DNA from: Planctomycetota bacterium
GTDB lineage: Bacteria > Planctomycetota > Phycisphaerae > Phycisphaerales > SM1A02
Length of the DNA: 64,000 nt
Reading direction: 5' to 3'
Assembly: GCA_016872835.1 (NCBI GenBank)
Contig: VGYX01000004.1
Location: forward strand, 1-64,000
Below are positions 7,872 to 46,076 of this stretch, one piece after another. The notes under the pieces were generated by a model that saw only the letters and a program-made list of their open reading frames with translations, was not told the origin of the DNA and ran no database searches. The position numbers and the translations under genes are program-made. The number at the start of each line of letters is the position of its first letter. Positions within the stretch are counted from its first letter, which is position 1.

Positions 7872-7877
7872 GAGACT

Positions 7878-9314: not shown

Positions 9315-9595
9315 AGTTCACCAAGCGCGGGAACGAGAAGTCTTGCCAGCCGATGAGGTCGGGGAAGAATCTCGATCCGGGCCAGTGAGCCGACCGCAAC
9401 CATCACGCGGATCTCGTTCGCTTTGAGGAAGCGAAGCAGACGAAGCGGGGCCCCGAGCGGGACGCGGCCTGTCATTCCACGGAGTGACCACGCCGTCGAC
9501 AGGCTGGCCAGCGAGAGTGTCACGCCATCGTCGTTGGCTTCAAGAGAGACCGGACGGCCATCCAGCGTTCCCGCCAGCCGCCCGGCCAGAGTCAT
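9311..9595 (-). CDS. Small protein coupled to CRY-DASH, unknown function
   Basis: This 94-residue basic protein has no motif I recognise. It opens with MTLAGRLAGTLDGRPVSLEAND, reads as short beta strands rich in Leu, Val and Ala, and ends with an Arg-rich helix (ILPRPHRLARLLVPALGEL). There is no signal peptide or membrane segment. Its ATG overlaps the stop of the gene before it (ATGA at 9595-9592), and its stop overlaps the CRY-DASH GTG. The three genes therefore form a tightly coupled string. Co-translation suggests a role linked to the photoreceptor or its chromophore, but this is inference. Confidence 0.6.
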   Translation of the reverse strand: MTLAGRLAGTLDGRPVSLEANDDGVTLSLASLSTAWSLRGMTGRVPLGAPLRLLRFLKANEIRVMVAVGSLARIEILPRPHRLARLLVPALGEL

Positions 9596-9801
9596 TTTGG
9601 GCTGTTGCCCGTGTCGCGCGTACGAATCTTGATGGCCCCGTGAAGAATCCATTCGGCATGCTCGGCGGAGGCGCCGGTGCCACTGGGGATCTTCACATGC
9701 ATGTTGTCAAATTCGTAGGTGATCTCCGCACGACGTCCGGTCAGGTTGTCGTAGAGACCGATCAGCAGGTCGGGCCAGGTCTGTGGGTGCTTGTCTGCCA
9801 T
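9592..9801 (-). CDS. Small protein heading the CRY-DASH operon, unknown function
   Basis: This 69-residue soluble protein starts MADKHPQTWPDLLIGLYDNL and continues with a two-strand segment (RRAEITYEFDNMHVKIP) and IKIRTRD. I do not recognise the family. The ATG at 9801 is preceded by AAGGAG at about 6 nt, which is better than the in-frame upstream ATGs (9877 and 9939). It is the first gene of a three-gene coupled string ending in CRY-DASH. Confidence 0.6.
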   Translation of the reverse strand: MADKHPQTWPDLLIGLYDNLTGRRAEITYEFDNMHVKIPSGTGASAEHAEWILHGAIKIRTRDTGNSPK

Positions 9802-21231: not shown

Positions 21232-23772
21232 TCAGCGGCGACGCGCGACAAGCATGGAGTAGGGAGGCATCTCGATCGCGTTTCGCGCGGTGCCCAGCGG
21301 CTTCACGCCCGCCTGCTGTGCGTTCACGACGATCTCCCAGTCGCCACCTGGCATGGCCAACTGCTGGGAATTCGGCTCGCCGTTGTAGGCCACCAGAATC
21401 ATGTTCCAGGGATCGTCGGTGACCGTGCCGTCGAGGGTGAAGGCGATCGGCCCCGCGCCGTCGACGAATCGAACCGCTCGGCGGACCTCCTCGTCGTCAT
21501 CCATGCGGAATGCTGGATGCGCGCGACGCAGAGCCACGAGTCCACGCACGTACTCGTGCACATCGGCGTAAGCGGCCTTGCGATCCCAGTCGAAGCGGTT
21601 CACTGGATCGCCCGCGTCGTAGCTGTTGTGGTTGCCGCCCTTGGTACGCGCGAAGTCAGAGCCGCCGTGCAGGAACGCGACGCCCTGACTGGTCAGCACC
21701 ATGCCGAGTGCCAGCTTCTGCATGGCGCGGCGGGTCGCGTCGCTCGCCTGCGGCTGCGCCTTCACGAGCTTGTCCCACAGCGTCAGGTTGTCGTGCGCGC
21801 TCACATAGGCCACGCTTTCGATCGGTTCGCGCGCGAAGTCGTCGATCGCGCCCGACACGCCGCGCTGGATCGCCGCGCGATCGCCGCCGGGGCCCGTGGC
21901 GAATCCCGTCGACGTTCCGTCCAGGTCGCCGCGGATGGCGTTTCGCAGGTGATCGTTGAACACCGCGAAGCGCAGGCCCTTCTGCGCGCCCTTGCCGAAT
22001 CGGATCGGGCCGCCGCCAGTCCAGGGTTCGCCGTAGAGGGTCAGATCGCCGCGGATCGGCAGCAGCCGCTCGCACACGGCCTTCACCGTCTCGGGCGTGT
22101 GCGTGCCGACCAGGTCGAAGCGGAAGCCATCCACGCGATAGTCGCGGGTCCAGTGCTCCAGACTGTCCAGGATGTACTTGCGCATCATCGGGCGCTCGTC
22201 AGCCATGCAGTTGCCAACGCCTGCGTCGTTCAGCAGCGACCCGTCCGGTGCGGTGCGATGGAAGTAGAAGGGCACCGTCTGGTCGAAGGGCGACGATTCG
22301 CCGGTGCTGCTGGTGTGGTTGTAGACCACGTCCAGGATCACGCGGATCCCGGCCTGATGCAGCGACTGGATCGTCTCGCGCAATTCACGAACAGGCTGCA
22401 GCGGATCGCCCTTGCGCGAGGCGTAGTTGCTCTCGGGCACGTTGAAGAGCGCGGTCCAGTAGCCCCAGTTGTATTCGTCGGGCCTTGCGGTGAAGTCGTG
22501 GATCGGCAGCAGATGCACGGCCGTCACGCCGAGATCCTTCAGATGCGCGACGCCGGATCGCGATGGGGTGCCTGCGCCAGATTGCGCGATGCCCAGGTAG
22601 GTGCCGCGAAGGTCGGGTGGGCACGCGGGGTCCGCGATCGAGTAGTCCCGAACGTGGATCTCGTAGATCACCTCGTCGGAGGGGCTCGCGAGCGTCGGCA
22701 CTGGGGTGGACTTCCAGTCCGCAGGTTCCTCGCGGGCGAGGTCCGCGACCACGGAGTACGCGCTGTCCGCGGTGGCAGCCACGCAATGGATGTCCGGCAC
22801 CTCGCGATCCTTTCCGTAGCTGCGGAAGCGGTAGCGATAGCGCGTCCCGTGCTGGTCGCCATCCACCGAGGCGCTCCAGAGTCCGCGTGCGCCGCGCGTC
22901 AGCGGCACGACCCTCGGAGGGGCCTTCAGGTCCGCTCCGAAGAGCAGCAGATCCACCGAGTCGGCCACGGGACTCCACGTGGTGAAAGTGGTCGACGCGG
23001 GGGTGCACAAGGCGCCCAGCTTCGCGTCGAGTGGCGTGAACGACGGGTGATCCAGCACGCCGCGGGCGAAGACCGGGGCGGGATTCAGGCCCGGAACGCG
23101 AAGTTCCAGCGCCGCGACATCGGCTTCCTTCACCGTGCCCGAGAGCTTGATCGTGTACACGCCGCCTTCGCCGGGCCCGTCGATCTTCGCACAGCGTGGG
23201 GCGCTCTTGGCGTCACCCCGCACGGTGAACGCGACACCCTTGCGCTGCGTCGGCGACAGCGGCTGCGTGGTGGCGAGCGTGACGCGATCCGACGCGTCCA
23301 GGAACGCGCCGCGCACGCGCGGCTTCAGGTCGATCGCCGATGGATCGCGATGCACCGTCGCGTCACCCGACAGCAGCCAGATTTCCTGCACGGGGTCCCT
23401 GGCGAAGGAGACGCCGCGATCGCCATCGACATCCTTGGCTTCCCAGTTGCCGCGTCGCACCAGAAAGCCCGCACCGTCGGGACGATTCGCGAAGGGCACC
23501 ACGGCGTAGCGGCCGAAGGCGTCGGTGCCGGAGAACGCGAACGATCCACCCTCGCCGCCCGATGGCCACGCCCAGAGATTCCATCCGTCGTAATCACCGC
23601 CGGCGCGGCGGTAGTGCACGATCATCAGCGCAGCGGCGCCGGGGTTGGCCTTGCGCGCCGCCGGAATGGCGCTCGGGAAGTCCGCCGCTCTCGCCTGCGA
23701 GGCCGGGCATGCGATGCACGCAAGAGCCACGAGCAAGGCGAGCGTTCCGAGCCGACGCGTGATGGTCCGCAT
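21232..23772 (-). CDS. pulA: Type I pullulanase (GH13), exported
   Basis: This 846-residue debranching enzyme has a signal peptide (LGTLALLVALACIACPASQARA). It then has a CBM41-like starch-binding domain (MIVHYRRAGGDYDGWNLWAW), an intermediate domain, a CBM48-like domain (TTWSPVADSVDLLLF) and the GH13_14 catalytic barrel. Key residues are visible: YNWGYWTALFNVPE, DVVYNHT, the nucleophile Asp in DGFRFDLVG, the acid Glu in LYGEPWTGG, and AHDNLTLWD. It cuts alpha-1,6 branches in pullulan and starch, probably outside or in the periplasm. The ATG at 23772 is chosen because the signal peptide starts there. Divergent from the phosphatase gene, with 57 bp between starts. Confidence 0.93.
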   Translation of the reverse strand: MRTITRRLGTLALLVALACIACPASQARAADFPSAIPAARKANPGAAALMIVHYRRAGGDYDGWNLWAWPSGGEGGSFAFSGTDAFGRYAVVPFANRPDGAGFLVRRGNWEAKDVDGDRGVSFARDPVQEIWLLSGDATVHRDPSAIDLKPRVRGAFLDASDRVTLATTQPLSPTQRKGVAFTVRGDAKSAPRCAKIDGPGEGGVYTIKLSGTVKEADVAALELRVPGLNPAPVFARGVLDHPSFTPLDAKLGALCTPASTTFTTWSPVADSVDLLLFGADLKAPPRVVPLTRGARGLWSASVDGDQHGTRYRYRFRSYGKDREVPDIHCVAATADSAYSVVADLAREEPADWKSTPVPTLASPSDEVIYEIHVRDYSIADPACPPDLRGTYLGIAQSGAGTPSRSGVAHLKDLGVTAVHLLPIHDFTARPDEYNWGYWTALFNVPESNYASRKGDPLQPVRELRETIQSLHQAGIRVILDVVYNHTSSTGESSPFDQTVPFYFHRTAPDGSLLNDAGVGNCMADERPMMRKYILDSLEHWTRDYRVDGFRFDLVGTHTPETVKAVCERLLPIRGDLTLYGEPWTGGGPIRFGKGAQKGLRFAVFNDHLRNAIRGDLDGTSTGFATGPGGDRAAIQRGVSGAIDDFAREPIESVAYVSAHDNLTLWDKLVKAQPQASDATRRAMQKLALGMVLTSQGVAFLHGGSDFARTKGGNHNSYDAGDPVNRFDWDRKAAYADVHEYVRGLVALRRAHPAFRMDDDEEVRRAVRFVDGAGPIAFTLDGTVTDDPWNMILVAYNGEPNSQQLAMPGGDWEIVVNAQQAGVKPLGTARNAIEMPPYSMLVARRR

Positions 23773-23829: not shown

Positions 23830-24660
23830 ATGGAACCTCACGCCATCGTCTCCGGTCAGCCCGCCGAGATCGCCTCGCGTCTTGCCTGCCTGCTTGAGGT
23901 GGCCGCGCGCGCCTCGGCGCTGACGCGGCGCTACTTTCAGTCCGCCGAGGTGCGCGTGGAGCGCAAGTCGGACGAAAGCCCCGTGACGCAGGCCGATCGC
24001 GAGGCCGAGCGACTGATCCGCGAGACCGTGTCCGCCACGTTCCCGGGGGACGGCTTCATCGGCGAGGAGGAGGGCACCTCGCCTGACACGAGCGGCTTCC
24101 GTTGGGTGATCGATCCGATCGACGGAACCGTGAGTTTCGCCGCGGGCGTGCCGCTGTACGGCTCGCTCATCGGCATCGAGCGCACGCTGCCCGACGGCTC
24201 GCGACGCGTGGTGGCGGGGGTGGCCTCGATGCCGGCGCTTCGCGAGCGCGTGTGGGCCGTCGAGGGCGGCGGCGCATGGTGGGAGCGCGAGGGCCAGCCG
24301 ACGGTGCCGGCGCGCGTGTGCGAACCGATGCCGCTCTCCGAATCGATCGTGTGCACCACGGGCAGCGAGTACTACCGCCGCACGAGTCGCATGCACGTGC
24401 TGAAGCGGCTCGAGGAGACCTGCGGCCGGATGCGCGGCTGGAGCGACTGCTACGCGCTGGTGCTGCTCGCGACGGGTCGCTGTCAGGTGGCGCTCGACCC
24501 CATGATGAATCCGTGGGACTGCGGCCCGTTCCCCGTGATCATCGCCGAGGCGGGAGGCGTCTTCACCAGCTGGAGGGGCGAGCCGGGCATTCACGGTGGC
24601 GACTCGATCGCGTGTCATCCGGCCATGCACGCCGGCATGCTGCGGTTGCTCGCAAGTTGA
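23830..24660 (+). CDS. Inositol-monophosphatase-family phosphatase, likely histidinol-phosphatase
   Basis: This 276-residue Mg-dependent phosphatase has all metal-site motifs: SPVTQADREAE, GEEEG, WVIDPIDGTVSF and WDCGPFPVIIAEAGG. The SPVTQAD and EEEG pattern and the order match HisN-type histidinol-phosphatases, which finish the histidine pathway. Inositol-1-phosphatase or a nucleotide phosphatase is also possible. The protein is soluble and a typical length. It ends tail to tail with the type III PKS gene (19 bp apart). Confidence 0.85.
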   Translation: MEPHAIVSGQPAEIASRLACLLEVAARASALTRRYFQSAEVRVERKSDESPVTQADREAERLIRETVSATFPGDGFIGEEEGTSPDTSGFRWVIDPIDGTVSFAAGVPLYGSLIGIERTLPDGSRRVVAGVASMPALRERVWAVEGGGAWWEREGQPTVPARVCEPMPLSESIVCTTGSEYYRRTSRMHVLKRLEETCGRMRGWSDCYALVLLATGRCQVALDPMMNPWDCGPFPVIIAEAGGVFTSWRGEPGIHGGDSIACHPAMHAGMLRLLAS

Positions 24661-24679: not shown

Positions 24680-25750
24680 TCACGTGACCAGGAGCGATTC
24701 ACCGGCGAGACCGGGTCCGAAGGCCATGCCGACCCACGGTCGCGGCACATGATCGCGCTCAAGTCGATCGAGGATGAACAGCAGCGTGGCACTCGACATG
24801 TTGCCGAAGCTTCGAAGCACGTCGCGGCTGTGGGCGCCCGCTCTCTCCGGAAGTTGCATCGAGGCCAGCACCGCCTCGATCACGCGCGGTCCGCCGGGAT
24901 GGATCGCCCATCCACCGACCTCGCTGGCGCGCAGGTCGTGGCGCGCAAGCATGGATCCGACCCACGGTCCCACGCGTGCCTGAAGAATCTCGGGCACGCG
25001 CGCACCCAGCGTCATCTCAAAGCCATGGTTGCCGATGGTCCACGCCATCTCGTCGCGCGTGTCCGGCATGATCGCGCTGTCGAATGCCTCCAACACGGGC
25101 GCGCCCACCTGCATGCCCACGACAGCCGCCGCGGCGCCATCCGAGAAGAGCGTGTTCGCGATCAGGCGGTCCAGACGATCGCCGTAGTGCAGGTGCACCG
25201 AGCAGATCTCCACGCAGCAGACGAGCACACGGGCCTGTGGATCCGCGCAGGCGAGTGCCGCCGCCACCGCCAGCGCGTTCACCGCGGCATGGCAGCCCAT
25301 GAAGCCCACGTTCACGCGACGCGCGTTCGCGGGCAACGACAGATCCTCGATCAGCCATTGATCGGGACCGGGTGCCTGAAATCCCGTGCAACTCGCGGTG
25401 ACCACGTGCGTGATCTGTGCAGGGCTTGTTGCAGAGCGTGCCAGTGCCATCTCGGCCGCCCGCGCCGCCAGCGGCCGCGCCGCGCGCGCGAATCGCTCCA
25501 TCCGATCCAAGGTCGTCGGCCCGCGGCCTGCGGGGTCGCTTGGATAGAAGGTGGGTGCATCGGAGTGATCGGCCGTGTCGCAGTGACGTGACTCGATGCC
25601 ACTTCGACGGGCCAGTCGTTCCGTGATGGCGCGATCAACGCCGGATGGCGCGATGCGATCCGCGATCGGAATCCAGTCCGTCTGAAGCATGACCCGATCC
25701 GGCACGGCGGTGCCAAGGCCCAGCAGAGACGCGCGCGTCAGGCTTGACAT
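24680..25750 (-). CDS. Type III polyketide synthase (chalcone-synthase-like)
   Basis: This 356-residue homodimeric ketosynthase has the Cys-His-Asn triad: Cys in TASCTGFQAPGPDQ, His in WAIHPGGPRVIEA, and Asn in SFGNMSSATLLF. The Cys context (TGF, not TGV) and the GFMGCHAAVNAL segment match bacterial alkylresorcinol/alkylpyrone synthases (SrsA, ArsB/C-like). It condenses a starter acyl-CoA with malonyl-CoA units without an acyl carrier. It is the last gene of a methyltransferase - flavoprotein - PKS string, suggesting a methylated, oxidised phenolic lipid. Its ATG lies 13 bp inside the end of the FAD gene. Confidence 0.92.
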   Translation of the reverse strand: MSSLTRASLLGLGTAVPDRVMLQTDWIPIADRIAPSGVDRAITERLARRSGIESRHCDTADHSDAPTFYPSDPAGRGPTTLDRMERFARAARPLAARAAEMALARSATSPAQITHVVTASCTGFQAPGPDQWLIEDLSLPANARRVNVGFMGCHAAVNALAVAAALACADPQARVLVCCVEICSVHLHYGDRLDRLIANTLFSDGAAAAVVGMQVGAPVLEAFDSAIMPDTRDEMAWTIGNHGFEMTLGARVPEILQARVGPWVGSMLARHDLRASEVGGWAIHPGGPRVIEAVLASMQLPERAGAHSRDVLRSFGNMSSATLLFILDRLERDHVPRPWVGMAFGPGLAGESLLVT

Positions 25751-26895
25751 GCGTTCATCTCCGTGGCGCGCGTGCCGCCGAACTTCGCGGCCAGGGCGGC
25801 AGCCAGACTCGGCCAGCGTTCCGCAAGATGCAACGCCGCGTGAACCAGTGGCGGGCTGCGCAGCGCCCGGGCGGTCCAGCCGCAGCGCGTGCGGGCCTGA
25901 CCGACGAGTTCCTGCACGCGCGCACGCCACGCATGCGGCGACGCATCGCCACGCAAGACCGCCGCGGCGTGTTCGCCCGCCGCGAGCCCCGTCGCCAGCG
26001 CCCAGCCCATGCCTTCGCCGGTGAATGGCTCCACGTATCCGCCCGCATCGCCCGCGACCAGGATGTCGGCGGTCTGCAACGTGCGTCGATTTCGCCACAG
26101 ATGCGGCGTGCCATGCCAGTCGGCGGATTCGATGGCGGACACGTCGCGCACCATCGTGCCAAGCATGCTTCGCAGGAGCGGAGCGGGGCCGCCCTGTTCC
26201 CGAATCGACTCGGGGCGGACCGCCGCGGCGACATCCACCTGTCTATCGGGCAGGCGAACCAATCCAACGTAGCCGCATCCGTTCACATGCATGCGTATCT
26301 CGCCGTCCGCCACGTCCAGCGCGTGCGCAGGCACGATGGCGCCCACGCCCATGCGGCTCGCGCGTCGCACCCGCCAGGCGAATCGTGAGTCCTCGGCAAG
26401 CGCGCCGCCGCGCAGTCCATCGGCGACCACGCGGATGCGGGCGTGGATCATGCGCTCGCCGCCCGGGCCTCGGATCGTCGCGTGGCCGTCATCCTGCACC
26501 GTCGCCACGAACGGCCATGCAAGTCGTGCGCCGGCCCGTGCCGCCAGGTGAAGCAGGCCGGCATCCAGCGTGGAGCGCGAGAGGACCAACGTTCCTTCGC
26601 GTCGCACATGGACCGAACTTGATCCGATCGAAAGGCGCACGCCGCGGACTTCGACCGAGCCCTGAAGCACCTCGGCCGCGCCCGCCCGATGCAGCACCTG
26701 CTGACCGAATGGTGCCAGACAGCATCCGCACACCTTTTCCCGGGGATGGGCGACTCGGTCCACCACCAAGGTGTCCAATCCTGCTCGGGCCGAGGCGAGC
26801 GCCGCCATCGCGCCGGCGGGGCCGCCTCCGACCACCAGCACATCGACCTGACTCGGTAACGAACGCGCGTTCGAGATGGCAGAAAGGGGCGTCAT
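25738..26895 (-). CDS. FAD-dependent oxidoreductase (geranylgeranyl-reductase-like)
   Basis: This 385-residue flavoprotein has the ADP-binding motif VDVLVVGGGPAGAMAALASARAGLDTL at its start, the KVCGCCLAP segment near residue 60 that in this family lies close to FAD, and the second FAD contact ILVAGDAGGYVEPFTGEGMGWAL. The group-2 hydroxylase/geranylgeranyl-reductase family includes partners of type III PKS genes that hydroxylate phenolic lipids to quinones. That is the likely role here. The ATG at 26895 overlaps the methyltransferase stop (ATGA). Confidence 0.87.
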   Translation of the reverse strand: MTPLSAISNARSLPSQVDVLVVGGGPAGAMAALASARAGLDTLVVDRVAHPREKVCGCCLAPFGQQVLHRAGAAEVLQGSVEVRGVRLSIGSSSVHVRREGTLVLSRSTLDAGLLHLAARAGARLAWPFVATVQDDGHATIRGPGGERMIHARIRVVADGLRGGALAEDSRFAWRVRRASRMGVGAIVPAHALDVADGEIRMHVNGCGYVGLVRLPDRQVDVAAAVRPESIREQGGPAPLLRSMLGTMVRDVSAIESADWHGTPHLWRNRRTLQTADILVAGDAGGYVEPFTGEGMGWALATGLAAGEHAAAVLRGDASPHAWRARVQELVGQARTRCGWTARALRSPPLVHAALHLAERWPSLAAALAAKFGGTRATEMNACQA

Positions 26896-27677
26896 CCCGA
26901 AGCGCTCCCCGGGCGACTCCACCACAAGCGCCAACGAACGGCGTCCATCAGCTCGACCGAAGCCGCAGGCATCTCGGCGCGCGCCGCCATCGCGCGAATC
27001 TCGGCGGGGTCATGCGCGGCGCGCACGCTCGCCATCGCGTCGTGATGCACGACCGGACTTCGCGTCACCAATCTGGAACCAAGCCACACCAGCGCGAGCG
27101 CACGTCGTGTGCGGCGAAGATCGGTCACGCCCACCGCAAGCCGCGCCGCGCCACGCATGGCACGAAGGACCTTCACCACGTCCTCCGGGTCCAGATGATG
27201 CAGGAACAGGCTGTTGAGCACCACATCGGCGTGTGGAAGCGGTTCTCGAAGCGCGTCGATCACCGCGCCGTCGCAGCGCATGCCGGCGGCGCGCGATCTG
27301 GCGATCGACTGGTCAAGCGCCTGCCGGCTTCGATCGCTCAGGATCCAGTGCAGCGTGAGACCCGCACGCCGCGCGAGCGCATCGAGGCGCCGAGGCAGAT
27401 CTCCGCCGCCGCTGGCGACATCCAGCACCTGAAGGGGCCTGTCCACACGCGCGGCCAGTTCGCGAAGCGGGTGCCAGACCAGTCGATGCGCACGGGAGAT
27501 CGCGTTCAGTCGCGCCAGCCCCGCGAGCGCGTGGGCGTGCACATCCGCCGCGATCGCAGGATCGTCCATCCACTCGGCGACCCTGTGGCGCGCCAGCGTC
27601 ACGGCATCCGACTCCCGAACTTCACAGGCACGCGCATGGCGCTCAGGCGCCCCGATCGCGGTAGCTCGGCGGGGCAC
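26892..27677 (-). CDS. SAM-dependent methyltransferase
   Basis: This protein of about 261 residues has class I methyltransferase motifs. Motif I is LQVLDVASGGGDLPRRL, followed by LHWILSDRS for the adenine side. Motif post-I is ADVVLNSLFLHHLDPEDVVKVL, then a helix-strand ending WWSRPGS. It is probably O- or C-methylating the polyketide product of the neighbouring PKS. The start is uncertain: a GTG at 27677 gives a 35-bp overlap with the NAD kinase gene, and an in-frame GTG about 75 bp later is also possible. The MTase-FAD-PKS order resembles known phenolic-lipid clusters. Confidence 0.82.
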   Translation of the reverse strand: MPRRATAIGAPERHARACEVRESDAVTLARHRVAEWMDDPAIAADVHAHALAGLARLNAISRAHRLVWHPLRELAARVDRPLQVLDVASGGGDLPRRLDALARRAGLTLHWILSDRSRQALDQSIARSRAAGMRCDGAVIDALREPLPHADVVLNSLFLHHLDPEDVVKVLRAMRGAARLAVGVTDLRRTRRALALVWLGSRLVTRSPVVHHDAMASVRAAHDPAEIRAMAARAEMPAASVELMDAVRWRLWWSRPGSASG

Positions 27678-28493
27678 CCCAGCGCATCTTCTCGACGAGC
27701 GTGTCCCAGTAGCTCCGGTCGGGATTGCCGATGAAGCGCGCGTCGGTGTGATGACGGCCCACCAGCACGCGGTCGCCCTTGCCGATCGGCACGATCGCCT
27801 GACCGTCGAGCACGAGCGAGGTGCCCTCGTTCGTGCGCACCGCCTCGATCAGGATCTCCACGTGGCTGGGCGCCACGATCGGGCGGAAGGCCAAACTGTG
27901 CGCGCAGTTCGGCGTCACGATGATCGCCTCGACGTCAGGCTGCACGATCGGTCCGCCCGCGCTCACGTTGTAGGCGGTGCTGCCGATCGGCGTGGCCACG
28001 ATCACGCCGTCGCCGACCAGATCGGGGCCCGGCCGACCGCCCAGCGTGAGTTTCAGCTCGATCATGCGAAAGGGAGCGCCCGCGGTGACCGCCGCCTCGT
28101 TGATCGCGAGCCCCTCGTGCACCAGATCGCCGCGCGCGTTGCGCACGATCGCGTCGATCGCCATGCGCGCACGCACCACCGGGTCCTGCCCGAAGATCAT
28201 CTCCGCGTGCGTGTGCAGTCCTTCCAGGTCGAACTCGGCCAGGAAGCCCAGCCGCCCGAAGTTCACGCCGACCAGGGGCACACCCCGGTCGATCAGCCGC
28301 CGACACTGCGCGATCAGCGTGCCATCGCCGCCCAGCACGACCACGCGATCGAACACGGTGCGCGTGGGAATCGGCTTCTGGTCCGCGTCGAGCTCCTCCA
28401 CGATGCGACCGTGCCTGCCCACGATGCGGCGCACCTCGTCGAGCGCCTCCGGCACGCCCTTTCGACTTCGATCCGCCACCAGAAGCACGTCGG

Positions 28494-28497
<4 letters not shown>
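27643..28497 (-). CDS. nadK: NAD kinase
   Basis: This 284-residue enzyme phosphorylates NAD to NADP. The GGDGT motif (VVLGGDGTLIAQCRR) and the strongly conserved NFGRLGFL and TPIGSTAYNVSAGGPIVQPD are present. The C-terminal half keeps the HSLAFRPIV loop and VLDGQ, which bind NAD and metal. The protein is a little short, mainly at the N-terminus, but complete. The ATG at 28497 overlaps the ABC ATPase stop (ATGA). It is co-transcribed with the downstream methyltransferase and flavoprotein genes, so it may set NADPH supply for that pathway, though NAD kinase is needed by every cell. Confidence 0.93.
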
Positions 28498-29441
<944 letters not shown>

Positions 29442-29464
29442 GGCCCACCTGAAGGGTACGCCAT

Positions 29465-31978
29465 TCAGGGCGATGGCCGCACGAAGCCCAGTTCCTCGCA
29501 GGGCAGGGGCAGGATGAACCGCACCATGACCGCGCCGTCGCTGGTCGGCTCCCGCCCATCCACGCGCAGCGGAGCTGGCAGGGCGGTGCCCTCGAGGAAT
29601 CCCGTCACCACGACGCAGGGTCGGGTGAACCATGTCGAGAGGTCGAGCTCGCGCCCCAGCAGTCGGCGCACGCGCACCACGCCCTGCGAGAGCGCGGCCT
29701 GGTTCCGGCGGTACGCGGGCGGCTCCAGCATGTCGTAGAGGCTCAGCATTTCCAGCCGCCGCATCCACGCGTCGGATCCGAAGGCGCCCGTCACGTTTCC
29801 GCCGAGCGTCCCGCCCACATCCGACTCCAGCGGATCCTGATAGGTGCGCTTGACCTCCACGATCATCGATCCTTCGCCCTTGCCGCTCACGGGCAGCGGA
29901 CCTTTCGGGTAGAGCGCCTTGCCCAGATCCAACGCCTCGCCGCTCCACGCGCTCAGGGTCACCATGCGTGCGGGCCGCGGCGGAAGTCCCGAGGGATCGA
30001 TCAGCGGACTGGAACCGGTGGTCCACGATCGCGGCGGGTAGAGCCACGGGGTCACGTGCAGGATCTGCACGTTGCGAAGAGGTCCGGGCAGCCCGTGTCG
30101 GATCACCCCACGCAGACCAACCTTCGGATTGGTCCCTGTCTGCACGATCGTCTCCACGGGACTCCCCTCGTCGACCCACGCGACGCGGCCCCACGCAGTA
30201 GGTGCAGGCGCCAGCGACCACGCCTGCATCTCGGTGGCGGTGGCGCGCGAGGGAGCCAGCACCTCGCCTGGTCGATCCACGTCACGCGAGGCCTGTGCCG
30301 TGTCGGGGAATCGACTCGTGCTGCCGTCGGGCGGAGGACTCCAGTCCAGCAGCAGGCTGTCACGCTGCGCGATCTCGCCCAAGGTCACGGGCGTGGTCCC
30401 GAATCCACCCAATGCCACGCTCAGCCACGCGTTCACGCGCAGTCGACGGACCTTCGCCCCCTCGCCGTCATCCGCCGTCGCAAGGATGAAGTCCGCCACC
30501 GACAGATGACGCACCTGAATCGTCGAGCCGCCGAACGCCAGCCCAAGCGCCCACGCGACGGGCGCCGCAAGCAGCGCGATCACGGCGAAGACCGGCCATG
30601 CCCTCGCCAGACGGTGTCGTCGCTTCAGGAACAGCCAACTCCCCGGCACGGCCAGCACCCAATACGCCACAAAGAACGCGAGCACCGACAGCACCCCGCC
30701 CGTGGCCTGTCCGGTCTGGCCGATCTGCTCGAGCACCAGATCACCATCGCCCGCCACGAACGTGCGCGTCCCGGTGCGTCCCAGCAGTTGCGGTGGCTGG
30801 GCGGCCTGCCATGTGGTGTAGTTGCCCAATGTCGGGCTGTCGGCGCGCCGGCCCAAGATTCGATTCCAGAACACGTCCGCCTGCGGCAGACCATCGGCCG
30901 CGAGCGCGCGTGCGTGAAGCGCGGCCACGTCGAGCCCGACAAGCGTGATGCGTCCGTGTCCCCACACTCTCTCCGCCACCAGCGCCGCATCCGGAATCTC
31001 CTTCAAGGTCAAGGTATCCGGCAGCAACACCAGCGGCTTCCATCCACGATCGAGCGCCTTCGCGTCGAACACCGTGAGCGTGGTGGTCACGTGCGCCTTG
31101 CGAAGCTCGCGATTCTTCGACAACACAGGAAGCAGCGCCTCGATGTCCACGGCTTCCGCCCGCGCCGTACCTCGCGTTGGAAGCGCCTCGGACAGGGCGT
31201 GGCTGCCACCGCCACGAAGCGACCACAGGTCGCCCGCCTCGGGGATCACGATCACGAGATGGCCGCCGCGATCCACCCACTCCAGGATTGCGCGCGCACG
31301 CTCCGGATCCAGCGTGCCGGGGCTCGGGCCTGCCCAGACCAGCGTGCCGGCGGTGGCGAGGCCCTCCCAGCGATCCGGTAAATCCGCCACGCGGGTGCCC
31401 GGCATCACGCGCGTCGCTTCCTGCATCGAGGGCACGTCGGGGCCGTCGAACTGCGCATCCAGGGTCTCCAGACCCAGGCGGCCGTCGCCGACGATCGCGA
31501 TCAGTCCTTGCACCATCGAGAGAGGCTCCGAAGGGCGCGCGGCGTCGCCGGGCTTGAAGCGCGTCTGGATCAGCTCGCGCGCCCGAGCACCGTTGCGTGC
31601 CTCGAACACTCGGACAGTGAAGGTGTCGGTGGCCAGGCTTTGCGGAGTCGCGGAAGGCGGCAGCCGCGCGTAGAGCCATCGCCGCGTCGTCTGGCCGGGT
31701 GTCAGCGTGACCGTTCGTGCGTGCGAAACCAGGTCGCCGTCGGCGTTCGGCAGATCCCACTGCACCACGCACTCGATCGGTTCCGTCAGGTTCGAGCGCA
31801 GGTTCACGCACATGCCGGTGACGTCGCCGGGACGGAACGCGCGCAACGCGCCGAACTGCTCCAGTGTCACCACCACCTCGTCCGATGCGCGGGCGGGCCG
31901 CACCATCATGGCGCTCAGCAGGAGCGCCACCAGCACCCCGACGAGGCGATGCACCGAGATGGACGCCCTCGCGCTCAC
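29465..31978 (-). CDS. Large exported/membrane protein with the ABC ATPase, unknown
   Basis: This 837-residue protein has a signal peptide (HRLVGVLVALLLSAMMVRPARA). A long extracytoplasmic region of about 400 residues follows, with a Rossmann-like segment resembling the GldG/glutamine-amidotransferase-like IVIPEAGDLWSL and WVDRGGHLVIVIP. Two membrane helices (LAFFVAYWVLAVPGSWLFL and AVIALLAAPVAWALGLAF) come next, then a further 300-residue outer domain. I do not recognise a named family, but the architecture recalls GldG-type accessory subunits of ABC exporters and planctomycete DUF4350-type proteins. The GTG at 31978 overlaps the M20 gene stop (GTGA), so it is coupled both upstream and downstream. 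Confidence 0.8.
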   Translation of the reverse strand: MSARASISVHRLVGVLVALLLSAMMVRPARASDEVVVTLEQFGALRAFRPGDVTGMCVNLRSNLTEPIECVVQWDLPNADGDLVSHARTVTLTPGQTTRRWLYARLPPSATPQSLATDTFTVRVFEARNGARARELIQTRFKPGDAARPSEPLSMVQGLIAIVGDGRLGLETLDAQFDGPDVPSMQEATRVMPGTRVADLPDRWEGLATAGTLVWAGPSPGTLDPERARAILEWVDRGGHLVIVIPEAGDLWSLRGGGSHALSEALPTRGTARAEAVDIEALLPVLSKNRELRKAHVTTTLTVFDAKALDRGWKPLVLLPDTLTLKEIPDAALVAERVWGHGRITLVGLDVAALHARALAADGLPQADVFWNRILGRRADSPTLGNYTTWQAAQPPQLLGRTGTRTFVAGDGDLVLEQIGQTGQATGGVLSVLAFFVAYWVLAVPGSWLFLKRRHRLARAWPVFAVIALLAAPVAWALGLAFGGSTIQVRHLSVADFILATADDGEGAKVRRLRVNAWLSVALGGFGTTPVTLGEIAQRDSLLLDWSPPPDGSTSRFPDTAQASRDVDRPGEVLAPSRATATEMQAWSLAPAPTAWGRVAWVDEGSPVETIVQTGTNPKVGLRGVIRHGLPGPLRNVQILHVTPWLYPPRSWTTGSSPLIDPSGLPPRPARMVTLSAWSGEALDLGKALYPKGPLPVSGKGEGSMIVEVKRTYQDPLESDVGGTLGGNVTGAFGSDAWMRRLEMLSLYDMLEPPAYRRNQAALSQGVVRVRRLLGRELDLSTWFTRPCVVVTGFLEGTALPAPLRVDGREPTSDGAVMVRFILPLPCEELGFVRPSP

Positions 31979-33375
31979 GGTCGCAGGTCGGCGATCGCCT
32001 TCAGGATCGCGGCATGGCTTCGGGTGCCACGGTGCAGGCATGTCAGTTCGAACTTCTCGTTCGGGCTGTGCACGCGGTCATCGTCGAGGCCGAAGCCGAC
32101 CAGCAGGCTCTCGAGTCCAAGGATCCTCTGGATCGAGCCCACGGCCGGAATGCTGCCGCCTGAGCCGATGTGTACGGGCCCCCGGCCGTACACCTTCTCG
32201 AGCGCGCGTTCTGTCGCCGAGAGGTAGGGGCTCTCGTCCGCCACGCGGATCGGCGGGTTGCGGCCGAAGGACTCGATCTTCAGGTGGAAGCCCACGGGCA
32301 CGCGCGCGTGCAGGTGCGCACAGAGTCGCTCGTAGGTCCGCTCGGGATCCATGTCCGCCACGAGCCTGCAGGAGATCTTCGCGCTGGCCTGACTCGCGAT
32401 CACCGTCTTGGCGCCGGCGCCGATGTAGCCGCCCTTGATGCCGTTGCAATCGCAGGTGGGGCGGCACCAGGTGCGCTCCATCGCGCCGAAGCCCGGCTCG
32501 CCGAATCCGCTCTTCAGGCCTGCGGCGCCGAGGAATTCCGCCTCGTCAAAGCCCAGTCCCGCCCACTGCGCCTTCGTGCGCTCGGGCAGCGGTCGCACTT
32601 CGTCGTAGAAGCCCTCGATCGCCACGCGGCCATCGGCGTGGTGCAGGCTCGCCACCATGCATGCGAGCGCGTTGATCGGGTTCACGATCGCGCCGCCGTA
32701 CAGCCCCGAGTGCAGATCATGCGAGGGCCCGCTCAGCGTCGCTTCGATGTAGACAAGTCCGCGCAGCATGGTCGTGATCGCCGGCGTGTTCACGTCCCAC
32801 ATGCCCGTGTCGCTCACGATCGCCACGTCCGCGTCAAGTTCCTTGCGGTGCGACTCTATGAACGGCTCCAGACTTGGACTGCCGCTCTCCTCCTCGCCCT
32901 CCAGCAAGACCGTGACGGGGCAGGGGGGCGAGCCCGTGCAGGCATGCCACGCGCGGAGCGCCTCGATGAACGTCATCACCTGTCCCTTGTCGTCCACCGC
33001 GCCGCGGGCCACGATGCGCTTGCCGCGCGGGCCGTCGACCACCACGGGCTCAAAGGGCGGGCTTTCCCACAGTTCCAGTGGATCGGGAGGCTGCACGTCG
33101 TAGTGGCCGTAGAACAGCACGCGCGGGGCCGTCACGCCCTTCGGGCCCGGGTGCTTGGCAAGCACCATCGGGTGACCCGGCGTGTCCACCACGCGCGCAT
33201 CGAAGCCAAGCGCCCGCAATTGTTCCGCCGACCATGCCGCGCCGCGCCGGACCTCAGGCGCGTGCTTCGGATCCGTCGAGATGGTTGGAATGCGAAGGAA
33301 ATCCTTCAGACGCTCGATCGCACCGGGATGGTCTGCATCGGCACGTGCGAGCACGCTTTCGAGGTCGGCTGCCAT
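31975..33375 (-). CDS. M20-family dipeptidase
   Basis: This 466-residue metallopeptidase is a cytosolic-nonspecific-dipeptidase-like member of M20. Metal-site motifs are visible: FYGHYDVQPPDPLELW, ARGAVDDKGQVMTFIEA, LLEGEEESGSPSLEPF and AIVSDTG. The lid domain contains GPSHDLHSGLYGG, and a late His is in DDDRVHSPNEKFEL. It hydrolyses dipeptides or N-acyl amino acids with two zinc ions. The ATG at 33375 opens the longest operon in the window, and its stop overlaps the next start. Confidence 0.92.
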   Translation of the reverse strand: MAADLESVLARADADHPGAIERLKDFLRIPTISTDPKHAPEVRRGAAWSAEQLRALGFDARVVDTPGHPMVLAKHPGPKGVTAPRVLFYGHYDVQPPDPLELWESPPFEPVVVDGPRGKRIVARGAVDDKGQVMTFIEALRAWHACTGSPPCPVTVLLEGEEESGSPSLEPFIESHRKELDADVAIVSDTGMWDVNTPAITTMLRGLVYIEATLSGPSHDLHSGLYGGAIVNPINALACMVASLHHADGRVAIEGFYDEVRPLPERTKAQWAGLGFDEAEFLGAAGLKSGFGEPGFGAMERTWCRPTCDCNGIKGGYIGAGAKTVIASQASAKISCRLVADMDPERTYERLCAHLHARVPVGFHLKIESFGRNPPIRVADESPYLSATERALEKVYGRGPVHIGSGGSIPAVGSIQRILGLESLLVGFGLDDDRVHSPNEKFELTCLHRGTRSHAAILKAIADLRP

Positions 33376-33766: not shown

Positions 33767-34327
33767 ATGCCGCATGAACCCGCAAACATCCTTGCGCCGT
33801 GGAGCGCGCATCTGGCCAAGGCCTCCGGTCTTCCCGTCGTTCTGGGGTCCTCGCCTCCACCCGAGGCGCTGCGCAGCGCCCGCGTGCAGCGCGACAGCGT
33901 GGATCTGCGTCTCTGGCTCGAGGCCTGCCGAGCCGCGCCCTCCCCGGATGTGCTGCCCGCGGGCGACGGTCCCCTGGTCGTCTGGGACCAGAGCGTGGCG
34001 ATCGAGGTGTGGACCGAGGAGGAGCTCTCCGGCATGCACGCGCTGGCTCGCTTGGCCCGGCGCATGGACTCTGCGCACGCCCGGGCACGGCTTCGCGCGG
34101 CGGTGCGCTGGCACATCGAGCACACCCAGCCCGACAACGGCACGAATCGACCATGGGCGGCGCATGCGTTCCTGATCGAGGGTTCGCCCGAGGCGCACGC
34201 CTACGCGGGCACGCTGCTTCACAACGCGCTGGCCCTCACGGGTCAGCCGACACCGCTCTCCGCATGGATCCTGATGGATGCGGCGGCGGAGCTCGCATGG
34301 GCCGCTGGTCCGGCGCGCGCGAGTTAG
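33767..34327 (+). CDS. Hypothetical soluble protein
   Basis: This 186-residue protein has no recognised motif. It is rich in Ala and Trp and largely helical, with EVWTEEELSGMHALARLARRM and RAAVRWHIEHTQPDNGTNRP, and ends in a helix TPLSAWILMDAAAELAW. No signal peptide or membrane segment. The gene stops 32 bp before the membrane protein start and runs in the same direction. Confidence 0.6.
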   Translation: MPHEPANILAPWSAHLAKASGLPVVLGSSPPPEALRSARVQRDSVDLRLWLEACRAAPSPDVLPAGDGPLVVWDQSVAIEVWTEEELSGMHALARLARRMDSAHARARLRAAVRWHIEHTQPDNGTNRPWAAHAFLIEGSPEAHAYAGTLLHNALALTGQPTPLSAWILMDAAAELAWAAGPARAS

Positions 34328-34358
34328 GATGCGACCCCTGACCCAGGAGGCTCCGCTG

Positions 34359-35756
34359 ATGGCAGATCGCGTGGTGGTGGATCGAATCGATTTCCGTGAG
34401 ACCCTCGTGTTTCCGCGCGTCATCGCCTCCGCGGTCTCGGCGCTGCAGTTTCCGCGCCTCCTGCTCGCCACCTTCAGCCTGCTCTGTCTGGTCGTGCTTG
34501 GGCGCGGCTACGACGCGGTGCGCGGCCCCTCCATCCAGCCCGCGGGCCTGCTGGCGCCGGCGCGCACGGCGCTCGACATGGGCATGGGAAGCGAAGTGGC
34601 GCGTCGGATCGCGCGCGAGACGTTGCCCGCGGAACTGCGTCCGGAGGGCGTGGACGGGCTGGGCGGGCGTGTCGACATCGAGGAAGTCCGCGCGGTCCTG
34701 CTGGATCGCCGTGGCGAGGTCGAAGGCACGGAACTGGAGCTGATTCGACGCGGTCTCGACCGACTCGAGCCCTACCGCGGCAAGGGCGCTTTCGACGCAC
34801 TCTCCACGGCGGTCGGTCTGCGCTTCGACGCGCTCGTGGCGGCCACGCTCACGCTGGACTTCCGCGGCGCCGCGGGCTGCCTGGGCGATCTCTTCATCGA
34901 CATCCCAACCGCGCTCTGGCGCGAGGACCGCGTCTTCACGATCTTCTACGCGATCGCCGGTGGCATGGTGTTCGGCTTCCTCGGAGCCGCGATCTGCCGC
35001 ATGGCCGCCGTGCACTTGGCGCGGCGCGGCGAGCTCGCGCCGGTCGACGCCATCGACTTCGTGCGCGCGCGGTCGCTGAATCATGCGCTCGTGCCGCTTT
35101 GGCCCGGGATTTCGCTGGTCGTGCTGCTGCCCGTCGCCTTGGTGATCGGCCTCATGGGACGCGTGCCCGGTCTCGACGTGATCGCAGGCGCGGCCTACGG
35201 CCTCGTGCTGTTCTTCGCCACCATCGCCGCGATCGTGCTGCTGCCGTGGCTTGTCGCCATGCCGCTGGCGGTGGCGGCGGCCGCATGCGAAGGTTGCGAT
35301 GGCCTCGAGGCGGCGCAGCGTTGTGGCGCGCTCGTGTTCCGTCGGCCCATGCACACGCTGCTCTACGCCACCTGCGCGCTTCTTGGCACGTGTCTGCTCG
35401 CGTTCACCGTGGATCTCGTCAGCACCGCCGCCATCTCGATCGCATCGGGCGTCACGGGTCTTTCGGCCGGCGAGGGCGCGATGGCCGCGACGGGCGGCGC
35501 ACGCCTGCTTGCGCCTGACGCCAACGCGCCCACGGTGTTCGTCGGCGGATCTTTCACGGCGTCCATGCAGGCGGTGTCGATCGGCTTTGCGCGGCTGTGG
35601 CAGGGCATCCTGCAGACGCTTGCGGCCGGCGCGGTCTTCTCGGCGATCTGCACCACCGCCACGGCGGCGTACCTGGCGCTTCGACGCACCTGCGACGATC
35701 AGCCCTTCGAGGATCTGTGGGATCCGGGCGCTCCGGCTGGCGTCCGAAACGACTGA
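34359..35756 (+). CDS. Multi-pass membrane protein
   Basis: This 465-residue protein has about six hydrophobic segments. The first, LLLATFSLLCLVVLG, follows a 20-residue cytoplasmic start. A loop of roughly 150 residues comes next, then AIAGGMVFGFLGAAIC, GISLVVLLPVALVIGLMG, VLFFATIAAIVLLPWLVAMPLAV, YATCALLGTCLLAF and a final segment before the tail. No transporter motif is recognised. The ATG at 34359 has GGAGG 8 nt upstream. It is convergent with the S1-domain gene, only 1 bp apart. Confidence 0.75.
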   Translation: MADRVVVDRIDFRETLVFPRVIASAVSALQFPRLLLATFSLLCLVVLGRGYDAVRGPSIQPAGLLAPARTALDMGMGSEVARRIARETLPAELRPEGVDGLGGRVDIEEVRAVLLDRRGEVEGTELELIRRGLDRLEPYRGKGAFDALSTAVGLRFDALVAATLTLDFRGAAGCLGDLFIDIPTALWREDRVFTIFYAIAGGMVFGFLGAAICRMAAVHLARRGELAPVDAIDFVRARSLNHALVPLWPGISLVVLLPVALVIGLMGRVPGLDVIAGAAYGLVLFFATIAAIVLLPWLVAMPLAVAAAACEGCDGLEAAQRCGALVFRRPMHTLLYATCALLGTCLLAFTVDLVSTAAISIASGVTGLSAGEGAMAATGGARLLAPDANAPTVFVGGSFTASMQAVSIGFARLWQGILQTLAAGAVFSAICTTATAAYLALRRTCDDQPFEDLWDPGAPAGVRND

Positions 35757-40713: not shown

Positions 40714-42576
40714 ATGAAGGGCATCAGCATCATCGAGCGTCACTTCGAGAAGGCGGTCCTCGCCCTGATCGCCTTGGGCCTCGGTGGGTATGCGCTGGTC
40801 GACGTGTCCGGCATGCTGCAGTCCAAGCCGAAGATGGGAGGCCGGGAGGTCGAACTCAGCGAGATGTCCAAGCAGCTCGTGCAGGTGAGCGACGAGGTTG
40901 GAGGTCTCCAGCTCGGCACCGAGGTCACGATCGAGATCCCATCGGGAGTCTCGACCGAGAGCGCCGCTGCGGGGTTCGACAAGCCTGCGGTCTCAGGCGA
41001 TCCGATCGTTCGCACCACGCCGCCTCTGGCGACCGCACTCTTTGCCAAGGCGAACCGCCCGATTCCGATGTACTTCGAACCATCGTTGGGACCGGTGAAG
41101 ATGGCGAGTCCCGTGCTGCAGCGCGACAACGCGGTGCAACTTGCCGAGGACGACACCGGCAAGGCGATCGCGGCGTTCCTCGATCAGCGCCCGGAGGGCT
41201 GGTCGAAGGGCGATCGCAACGTGATCTGGACCACTCCAACGGCCGAGATCGACCTGGCTGCGATCCGAGCCGAGTTCGAGCGATCCGGTTCGCAGGGCGG
41301 CTCGCCGCGTGAGCGCCTGCCGGTGCACTGGTGGCAGCAGCGCAACCGCGAAATCATCGTGCTCGATGTGCGCTTCGAGCGCCAAGAGCGCAAGGAAGAT
41401 GGCAGCTGGAGCGAGGCCACGCTCGTGCAAGGCCTCCCCGGAATGGCGAGTTTTCGGGGCCAGAAGTTCGCCAGCGTTGGCGCGGTGGTCGATGCACTGA
41501 AGAGGGCTCCTGACGCCAGCGAACAGATTGTGCGTCCCGCCCTTCCGCCCATGACTGCGGGTGGCGCCGCGGCGCCCGCCGCAGCGGGTGCGGCTCCGAC
41601 GGCACCGGCCAACCGCAAGTTGGCTGATGCGCAAAAGAGTCTTGAGGATGCGAAGAAGGCGTTGGAGCAGAAGGAAGCCGACCTTGAGAAGGCCGGCGGT
41701 CCCTACGACGGAGCGCCCAAGGGCGGCCGGGGCAGCGGTTCATCTGGCTCGTCCGGAGGCGGTGGCAAGGGTGGCGCGGGTGGCGGCGCGGGACGCCCCA
41801 CCGACGATGGAGACCCGGCCACGCTTCGCAAGCGCCGCATGCTCACGCTCGAGGTCGACAAGCTGAAGACTGAAGTCGCCGATCTCACCAAGAAGGTCGA
41901 CGAGCTCGTGAAGGCGGATGCCGCGGCGGCAAAGGGTGCCGAGGCCAGCGCCTCGTCGGATCGCGTGATGGTCTGGGCGAATGACTTCCAGGTTCGACCG
42001 GGCGCGGAGTATCGGTACCGCTGTCAGGTCGAGTTCGTGAACCCGTTCCTTGGCCGCCGCAATGAACTGCAACCGTCACAGCAGAAGCTCGATGCCGCAA
42101 GCGGAATCCGCACGGCTCCCAGCGAGTGGGTAACGGTGCGCGTTCGAAGTCCACGCGAGTTCTTTGCGCTCGAGGCGATGACGGGGGAGGGGGCGTCCGG
42201 GCTCGGGATGGGGCGCTTCGAGCTGTTCAAATTGGACGGTGGTTCGTGGCGGATCGCGCGTGACATGATCGAGTTCGGGGATCGCGTTGGCGGTCCAACC
42301 GAAGCGGGCGAGAAGGGCACCGCCAAGGTGGACTTCACGACCGATTGGTTTGTCGTCGGCGTCTACCGCGACCTCGCCACCGAAGCGAGTTCTGCTCGCG
42401 CCGGCGATCGTCCGATGCTTGTCGTGCTCGCAAGCGCGCGAGATCCGAACCGGATCATCGTGCGTCGGCCCGCCACGGACGCCGCCAGTCCCTCCAGGAG
42501 CTATCTGGGCGATCAGGCTGGGGACACCCCCGCGAGCCCACAGGCCTCCGCAAGTGGGTCGGGCAAGGGCGGTTGA
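40714..42576 (+). CDS. Single-TM protein with coiled coil and Gly-rich linker
   Basis: This 620-residue protein has one membrane helix (AVLALIALGLGGYALVDV, about 13 to 30). About 260 residues follow with a WWQQRNREIIVLDVRFERQ strand, then an Ala-rich linker and a coiled coil (LADAQKSLEDAKKALEQKEA). A Gly/Ser linker, a second coil (LEVDKLKTEVADLTKKVDEL) and a 200-residue C-terminal domain complete it. It is third in the pilM operon, probably a periplasmic scaffold component. I do not recognise the family. Confidence 0.65.
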   Translation: MKGISIIERHFEKAVLALIALGLGGYALVDVSGMLQSKPKMGGREVELSEMSKQLVQVSDEVGGLQLGTEVTIEIPSGVSTESAAAGFDKPAVSGDPIVRTTPPLATALFAKANRPIPMYFEPSLGPVKMASPVLQRDNAVQLAEDDTGKAIAAFLDQRPEGWSKGDRNVIWTTPTAEIDLAAIRAEFERSGSQGGSPRERLPVHWWQQRNREIIVLDVRFERQERKEDGSWSEATLVQGLPGMASFRGQKFASVGAVVDALKRAPDASEQIVRPALPPMTAGGAAAPAAAGAAPTAPANRKLADAQKSLEDAKKALEQKEADLEKAGGPYDGAPKGGRGSGSSGSSGGGGKGGAGGGAGRPTDDGDPATLRKRRMLTLEVDKLKTEVADLTKKVDELVKADAAAAKGAEASASSDRVMVWANDFQVRPGAEYRYRCQVEFVNPFLGRRNELQPSQQKLDAASGIRTAPSEWVTVRVRSPREFFALEAMTGEGASGLGMGRFELFKLDGGSWRIARDMIEFGDRVGGPTEAGEKGTAKVDFTTDWFVVGVYRDLATEASSARAGDRPMLVVLASARDPNRIIVRRPATDAASPSRSYLGDQAGDTPASPQASASGSGKGG

Positions 42577-42639
42577 GTTCCAGCGCGGCCACGGGTTGAA
42601 ATACCCGTAAATCGGGCCAAATTCGGGCTTCCCAACCCC

Positions 42640-42667
42640 TTGACAGCCCCTTGGGCTTCGTTAAACT
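42640..42667 (+). promoter_or_regulatory. Probable 23S-5S rRNA promoter
   Basis: A perfect -35 box TTGACA (42640-42645), a 16-nt spacer and a -10 TAAACT (42662-42667). This is the best sigma-70-type promoter in the window and lies about 300 nt before the 23S gene. Confidence 0.65.
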
Positions 42668-42969
42668 GCTCGGCCCGGCGTCGTGCCCATTGGGCATTTC
42701 GTCATGGGCGGAGAAATCCGTGGTTCTGTGACAAGTGCATGAGACTCGATGGTTGATAGGTCGCGCAGACGCGCGGGCTGGGCCCGCATCACGTGTGCGC
42801 GATTCGATGGCAAGCACCGATCGAGAATTTGCTTGAGATGCTGCCTGCAGCACACGTCGCCTAGGCGCGTGCGGCAGGTCGCTGGTCCAATTGAGCAAGA
42901 GGGGCCAGCGTGGGCGTCGATCAGAGATCGCCGGTCAGATGAAAGTCTGTCCGACGGCATCCGGTCGAC
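42668..42969 (+). other. rRNA leader without 16S or tRNA
   Basis: About 300 nt of transcribed leader. I see no 16S fragment, no tRNA cloverleaf and no open frame. The last 20 nt form the 5' arm of the stem that closes around 23S. Confidence 0.6.
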
Positions 42970-45740
<2,771 letters not shown>

Positions 45741-45968
45741 GTCGACCGGATTCCGTCACCCGACCAGGGTTTCTGGCCGGTGACCGGATCCACGAACATG
45801 ACCCCCCAAATACGGGTGGTGCCGGTTGTCGAAGGACTCCGGCGCCGCCCACACGCATCTGAAGCATCTCGATCGCGCCCAAGCGCGGTGGTGCTTGCCC
45901 CCGGACTCGTCCGGCAACCATCCAGTCTCAGCAAATCCCGTTCGTGCGCGAAAGCGCCCGGACGGATT
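45741..45968 (+). other. 23S-5S spacer
   Basis: About 230 bp with no tRNA and no plausible gene. The first bases complete the 23S processing stem; the rest looks unstructured by eye. Confidence 0.6.
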
Positions 45969-46076
45969 TGTCGGTGAATTTACGCAGGGGGAAATACCTG
46001 ATCCCATCCCGAACTCAGAAGTCAAGACCCTGCGGCCGATGATACTGCTCTGCGGGAAAGTAGGTGATCGCCGACT
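45969..46076 (+). rRNA. rrf: 5S ribosomal RNA
   Basis: Contains the 5S core CCTGATCCCATCCCGAACTC and AGAAGTCAAG, the loop E/helix IV segment around CCGATGATACTGC, and a closing stem in which GTCGGTGA (45970-45977) pairs with TCGCCGAC (46068-46075). About 108 nt. The ends are by eye. Confidence 0.93.

Follow-up and report, generated by a model that had tools for sequence, protein, structure and literature searches.

The window analysed here is a 64,000-nucleotide stretch, positions 1 to 64,000 of contig VGYX01000004.1, from a Planctomycetota bacterium of the order Phycisphaerales (assembly GCA_016872835.1), whose genome comprises 2,385,313 bases in 46 contigs at a completeness of 98.9%. A run of seven minus-strand genes fills positions 24680-33375, with gaps of -13 to +40 nt between neighbours. 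It joins an M20 dipeptidase, a DUF4350 membrane protein, an ATP-binding cassette (ABC) ATPase and an NAD kinase to a methyltransferase, a flavin adenine dinucleotide (FAD)-dependent oxidoreductase and a type III polyketide synthase (PKS). We find that this string is a composite of two units: unit A, from the dipeptidase to the NAD kinase, and unit B, the last three genes, hereafter the trio. The genes and the converging neighbour are:

24680..25750, minus strand: type III polyketide synthase (HidC-like), 356 aa; Cys153-His284-Asn317; Pfam Chal_sti_synt_N and Chal_sti_synt_C
25738..26895, minus strand: FAD-dependent oxidoreductase (HidB-like), 385 aa; FAD_binding_3; geranylgeranyl reductase superfamily TIGR02032 below its cut-off
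26892..27602, minus strand: S-adenosylmethionine-dependent class I methyltransferase (HidA-like), 236 aa from GTG 27602; Methyltransf_25; PRK06202 below its cut-off
27643..28497, minus strand: NAD kinase, 284 aa; PF20143 and PF01513
28494..29441, minus strand: ABC transporter ATPase (DrrA/GldA-like), 315 aa; PF00005; TIGR01188 and TIGR03522 below their cut-offs
29465..31978, minus strand: DUF4350 membrane protein, about 837 aa (start uncertain); PF14258; about three hydrophobic segments by hydropathy
31975..33375, minus strand: M20-family dipeptidase, 466 aa; PF01546 and PF07687; PRK09104 and PRK08201 above cut-off
23830..24660, plus strand: converging neighbour, histidinol-phosphatase-like inositol monophosphatase (HisN-like); PF00459; TIGR02067 below its cut-off

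A first-pass annotation had listed the same seven genes and described them as overlapping or nearly touching; the open reading frames (ORFs) and the Pfam and NCBIfam matches bear out its order, coordinates and functions. The dipeptidase and membrane protein genes share a GTGA overlap if GTG 31978 is the start, which is uncertain; 23 nt separate the membrane protein from the ABC ATPase, and the ABC ATPase meets the NAD kinase in an ATGA overlap. Within the trio the methyltransferase/FAD junction is again an ATGA overlap, and the FAD and PKS genes overlap by 13 nt. Judged by match coordinates, a 35-nt overlap of methyltransferase and NAD kinase had seemed conserved in five genomes and was considered as a sign of translational coupling. 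An alignment of the junctions, however, ruled this out: the start codon at 27602 is common to the five genomes, so that the two genes are separated by 40 nt. Between 24400 and 33900 we found no sigma-70-like promoter against 0.5 expected by chance, although planctomycete promoters may not fit the scanned consensus, and terminator-like sites were at chance level (two found, 2.2 expected). From the spacing and these scans a single transcript for all seven genes is plausible. The packing exceeds chance, since the gene order within each half recurs in tens of genomes.

Separate distributions of the two units

Each of the seven proteins was searched (tblastn) in 80 loci around relatives of the PKS. 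Methyltransferase, FAD and PKS genes stand in that order on one strand in 60 of them (58 passed our filter; L040 and L081 also qualify, having escaped it because of gene overlaps of a few nt), which upholds the earlier view of the three as one conserved set for decorated alkylresorcinols. Eight loci begin under 1,300 nt upstream of the PKS, and their order is not readable; among them are L108 and L115 from Bacteroidota/Balneolota, in which the uncut loci have a different arrangement. The other 12 loci have different arrangements (five Bacteroidota/Balneolota, one Omnitrophota and six planctomycetes). Loci with the order of the trio include those of Gimesia metagenome-assembled genomes, which, together with Synechococcaceae loci of the same order, show 37-43% identity to the window in PKS and methyltransferase and 31-32% in the FAD protein (best segments). 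A match to the NAD kinase was found in one of the 80 loci, L040, which is the genus relative G010 and apparently the same contig, the match places being near-identical. A tie between an ABC ATPase and the trio in other genera was also considered, on account of matches that closely follow the PKS in L224, L225, L232, L239, L241 and L242; L239, the only one opened, looks from its ORF list like a sugar-import type, and the matches were therefore taken as incidental.

Within the family of the window, the methyltransferase was found in 64 of 181 genomes (E <= 1e-20), and all 64 carriers were inspected, as 30 loci and the regions of 34 further genomes. In 58 carriers the three genes stand in order on one strand, a count that takes G031 by its second copy and includes many loci containing only the start of the PKS; the remaining six (G008, G012, G197, G191, G159 and G119) hit a contig end. 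For two of the latter, G008 and G012, the missing PKS match had suggested loss of the gene, which was discarded because both run into contig ends. Discarded too were the in-frame TGA flags in many of the family's methyltransferase matches; in L187, which was checked, the TGA is the gene's own stop and the match runs on past it. Immediately upstream of the trio, an NAD kinase is seen in only five of the 64 carriers (G000, G004, G010, G008 and G012), all of the same genus and of one sub-clade, although two loci, L193 and L197, show only about 300 nt upstream and could hide one. As G008 and G012 hardly differ in unit A, the five genomes represent at most four separate lineages.

Two further observations concern the trio genes of the family. 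In G031 the trio methyltransferase is present twice, as identical copies about 5.2 kb apart (L251:2596-3336 and 7803-8543), the identity extending 80 nt to the left and 349 nt to the right of the gene; either part of the locus was recently duplicated or the assembly is at fault here. Another type III PKS, only distantly related to that of the window (31-40% identity), stands behind a FAD gene of its own in six genomes that were opened from the genus's other sub-clade (second type III PKS loci: L159:5381-8468; L154-L158; L033, L034 and L036). In G014 it is directly followed by a gene of a menaquinone-biosynthesis family (PF02621), matches to which also occur in PKS loci of G026, G030 and G017 but are lacking in the remaining five of the six genomes. 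A link between type III PKS and menaquinone is possible.

The surroundings of the NAD kinase were taken from 35 of the 37 genomes of a family sample. In 30 of the 35 an ABC ATPase lies at most 300 nt upstream of the NAD kinase on the same strand; the exceptions are G018, G027 and G028, with a gap of 1.0-2.9 kb, and G024 and G029, in which no ABC ATPase was found nearby. Dipeptidase, membrane protein and ABC ATPase precede the NAD kinase in that order in 27 of the 35, wider gaps being counted (G028, G022); the view ends at a contig end in G004, G010, G012 and G018. Trio genes, in contrast, follow the NAD kinase in only five of the 35. In other families of the same order (20 genomes opened of 24), none of the 20 had a match to the ABC ATPase, the membrane protein or the dipeptidase near its NAD kinase. 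Unit A is thus a family-wide arrangement, frequent without the trio, and independent of it.

The junction and its history

A relative of the same genus, G001, preserves an empty site. In its locus L120 the match to the NAD kinase extends to 8793, and that to the HisN-like gene, on the other strand, covers 8828-9652; the two genes that are adjacent there have the trio sitting between them in the window. A FastTree tree of three unit-A proteins from the 35 genomes groups G001 with G008 and G012 (support 0.977) within a six-genome clade (0.974), and places G000 with G004 and G010 at a weak support of 0.687. The simplest history, in which we infer the direction of change, would be a single arrival of the trio in the ancestor of the sub-clade followed by its loss in G001; the trio may, alternatively, have arrived independently. 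The other sub-clade of the genus, to judge from G014, has a seryl-tRNA synthetase after the NAD kinase.

A pullulanase-type gene (21232-23730) adjoins the HisN-like gene in the window and is shared by G004 and G010; the stretch taken from G001, which lacks the trio, does not contain it. From this pattern, what lies downstream of the NAD kinase may be variable as a single block. Elsewhere in the window, positions 42001-46000 have a G+C content of 0.57-0.59, against 0.66-0.67 on either side, and no ORF of at least 200 aa is listed between 42577 and 46237.

The trio enzymes and their expected product

The trio has the same three genes, in the same order and phylum, as the methyltransferase-oxidoreductase-PKS operon of planctomycetes described by Milke et al. 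(2024; PMC10896814). They report the operon from 58 of 131 planctomycete species and state that conservation of the genes around it is limited to close relatives, in agreement with an NAD kinase address confined to one sub-clade. Unlike the published operon, the window copy sits behind an NAD kinase string; order and phylum match, and the position is unusual. We found no report of a type III PKS operon with an NAD kinase among the matches listed in the open-licence PubMed Central (PMC) literature; the one listed paper that combines all the terms sought concerns a Pseudomonas genome. Gene order is also shared with hidABC of picocyanobacteria (hidA methyltransferase, hidB oxidoreductase, hidC type III PKS), as presented by Larsen et al. 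(2021; PMC8086630), who count 47 hierridin-like clusters in cyanobacteria; the phylum, however, is different, and the methylation may differ as well, C- versus O-.

Two Synechococcaceae loci, L061 and L074, show the methyltransferase-FAD-PKS order; compared with the window they are 43% identical in the PKS, 32% in the FAD protein and 37-40% in the methyltransferase (best segments). Their PKSs fall in a fork of 39 rows (support 85) that is otherwise mainly planctomycete, their exact place in it not being resolved, and this placement would fit a published suggestion of inter-phylum transfer. In the same tree, built without HidC itself, the window PKS joins L040 and, with other planctomycete or unnamed PKSs, falls in a starred set of 17 rows. 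The closest relative of the PKS, at 74% identity, is from the Planctomycetota isolate WB4_1_1411. The hierridin hid cluster was reportedly described by Costa et al. in 2019. The first-pass annotation had instead likened the trio to SrsABC of Streptomyces, a type III PKS, methyltransferase and flavoprotein said to make methylated alkylresorcinols or alkylquinones. SrsABC is alike in composition and reportedly different in gene order. The class of pathway stands; the closest described systems are cyanobacterial hidABC and its planctomycete counterpart.

We consider it very likely that the trio is a hierridin-type alkylresorcinol operon that landed behind a family-level NAD kinase string in the ancestor of the sub-clade, making the string a composite. 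In such a pathway a long-chain acyl-CoA (C16/C18) would be loaded onto the PKS and elongated by three malonyl-CoA, and a C2-C7 aldol condensation would close the tetraketide into a 5-alkylresorcinol. Oxidation of this ring would fall to the FAD enzyme and its methylation to the methyltransferase, at O as in hierridin or at C as suggested for Gimesia.

The PKS has the catalytic residues of active type III PKSs: Cys, His and Asn (C153, H284 and N317 in the window) are kept in all 80 aligned PKS rows, the window included and one short locus, L069, left out. Cys183 is Cys in 64 of the 80 rows, Ser in 15 and Pro in one, and aligns with a position of PKS18 that differs between deposits (Cys in 1ted, Phe in 1tee) and presumably lines the acyl tunnel. 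Membership of the DpgA (3,5-dihydroxyphenylacetyl-CoA synthase) family is not indicated, as the PKS scores 165.2 bits against an equivalog cut-off of 425 for NCBIfam NF042429. The FAD protein groups with geranylgeranyl reductases and with FAD monooxygenase/halogenase-type proteins, and the stretches G.GpAG, KvCG.C and GDa.gYvEPFTGEG are conserved across 65 rows. The ratio of nonsynonymous to synonymous substitution (dN/dS) is about 0.16-0.43 for the trio and about 0.12-0.17 for the ABC ATPase and the NAD kinase (both against G004, G010 and G008, the PKS without G008); in the comparison with G008 only, it is 0.18 for the dipeptidase and 0.44 for the membrane protein. By these ratios the trio genes appear constrained yet faster-evolving.

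For the ring, published expression work is a guide. Six planctomycete PKSs were tested in PMC10896814; both trio-borne ones gave long-chain alkylresorcinols (C15 and C17 for Gimesia maris, C17 for Rhodopirellula baltica), and five of the six fall on a separate branch with HidC. The earlier statement that the product is not predictable is thus overly cautious as regards the ring, and still applies to the decorations.

Several points weigh against a hierridin-type product or the conservation argued for it. According to PMC10896814, two of the six PKSs, neither trio-borne, yielded no product. Co-expression of the Gimesia methyltransferase and FAD enzyme led to a single methylation only, probably at C, while the ring of hierridin B is hydroxylated and twice O-methylated; and the role of the FAD enzyme is still to be elucidated, so that the FAD step proposed above is itself conjectural. 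The window PKS shares just 40-43% identity with the rows from Gimesia and Synechococcaceae, which makes pyrones or another starter possible. Half of the 12 differently arranged loci come from planctomycetes, and even close PKS relatives are therefore not always part of the trio. The dN/dS values are rough, as trio dS is about 1, near saturation. The top solved-structure match of the PKS is PKS18 (1ted), which we take to be an alkylpyrone synthase. That match, the methyltransferase and FAD set of like composition in SrsABC, and a methylation target that may be a carbon, as suggested for Gimesia, would all suit a trio that makes an alkylpyrone or an SrsABC-like methylated alkylquinone, not a hierridin-like alkylresorcinol ether. 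The gene order and family, which match those of the planctomycete and cyanobacterial operons, the alkylresorcinols made by the two trio-borne enzymes and the branch shared with HidC speak against such a product, and we regard it as unlikely.

Relation between the two halves

The alkylresorcinol reading of the trio does not need a dedicated lipid-pathway role for the NAD kinase, the ABC ATPase, the membrane protein or the dipeptidase. The first-pass annotation, however, had proposed that the NAD kinase and the ABC system serve the pathway by supplying NADPH and export, for which we see no support. No second NAD kinase was found in the genome (one PF20143 match genome-wide), as befits a general housekeeping enzyme serving the whole cell. 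The ABC ATPase matches DrrA and GldA best in NCBIfam, the best 25 of 187 scores for the string's ATPase all lying below cut-offs, and the DUF4350 membrane protein adjoins it. However, neither the seven genes nor three upstream neighbours that were tested contain a recognised ABC permease family, and ABC2_membrane_2, the one permease family searched genome-wide, had matches on other contigs only. One of these neighbours (34278-35756, plus strand), which has about five hydrophobic segments, is without a Pfam hit and lies on the strand opposite to the string. Lipid export by the string's ATPase was accordingly rejected.

Helper roles for the NAD kinase and the ABC ATPase may nevertheless exist, because the shared position persisted in five genomes while their methyltransferases diverged to 51-65% identity with that of the window. 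One could imagine, for this sub-clade, a fatty-acid-derived phenolic lipid operon brought under the promoter of the sole NAD kinase and the ATPase/DUF4350 pair, so that its output would follow NADPH capacity and envelope traffic, with the pair recruited for a permease-poor export or membrane-insertion route; we think this improbable. Slightly less probable still is a single seven-gene pathway operon, in which the NAD kinase would give the flavoprotein its NADPH and the ABC system would export the lipid. Its best arguments are that persistent arrangement and the layout of the string, with all genes on one strand, no more than 40 nt between neighbours and no promoter-like site separating them. 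But the ABC ATPase keeps to the NAD kinase in most of the sampled family and the trio rarely does, 59 of the 64 trio carriers have no visible NAD kinase upstream (two of these showing about 300 nt), the only NAD kinase would have to be shared with the rest of the cell, and no permease was recognised in the string. That the trio is a decaying, functionless passenger, as might be suggested by its probable loss from the sister genome G001 and by the fact that 11 of the genus's 16 genomes, some of them incomplete, lack a close methyltransferase match, is hardly credible given its intact reading frames, its intact PKS catalytic residues and a dN/dS well under 1 against three relatives.

For the family, the coupling of NAD kinase, ABC ATPase and DUF4350 protein raises the question of why an ATPase without a recognised permease accompanies the NAD kinase. 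The published alkylresorcinol operon is now placed in a family in which about a third of the genomes, the 64 carriers, have its methyltransferase, and the relative with the empty site shows that the tight packing of the string reflects two joined units, not one pathway.

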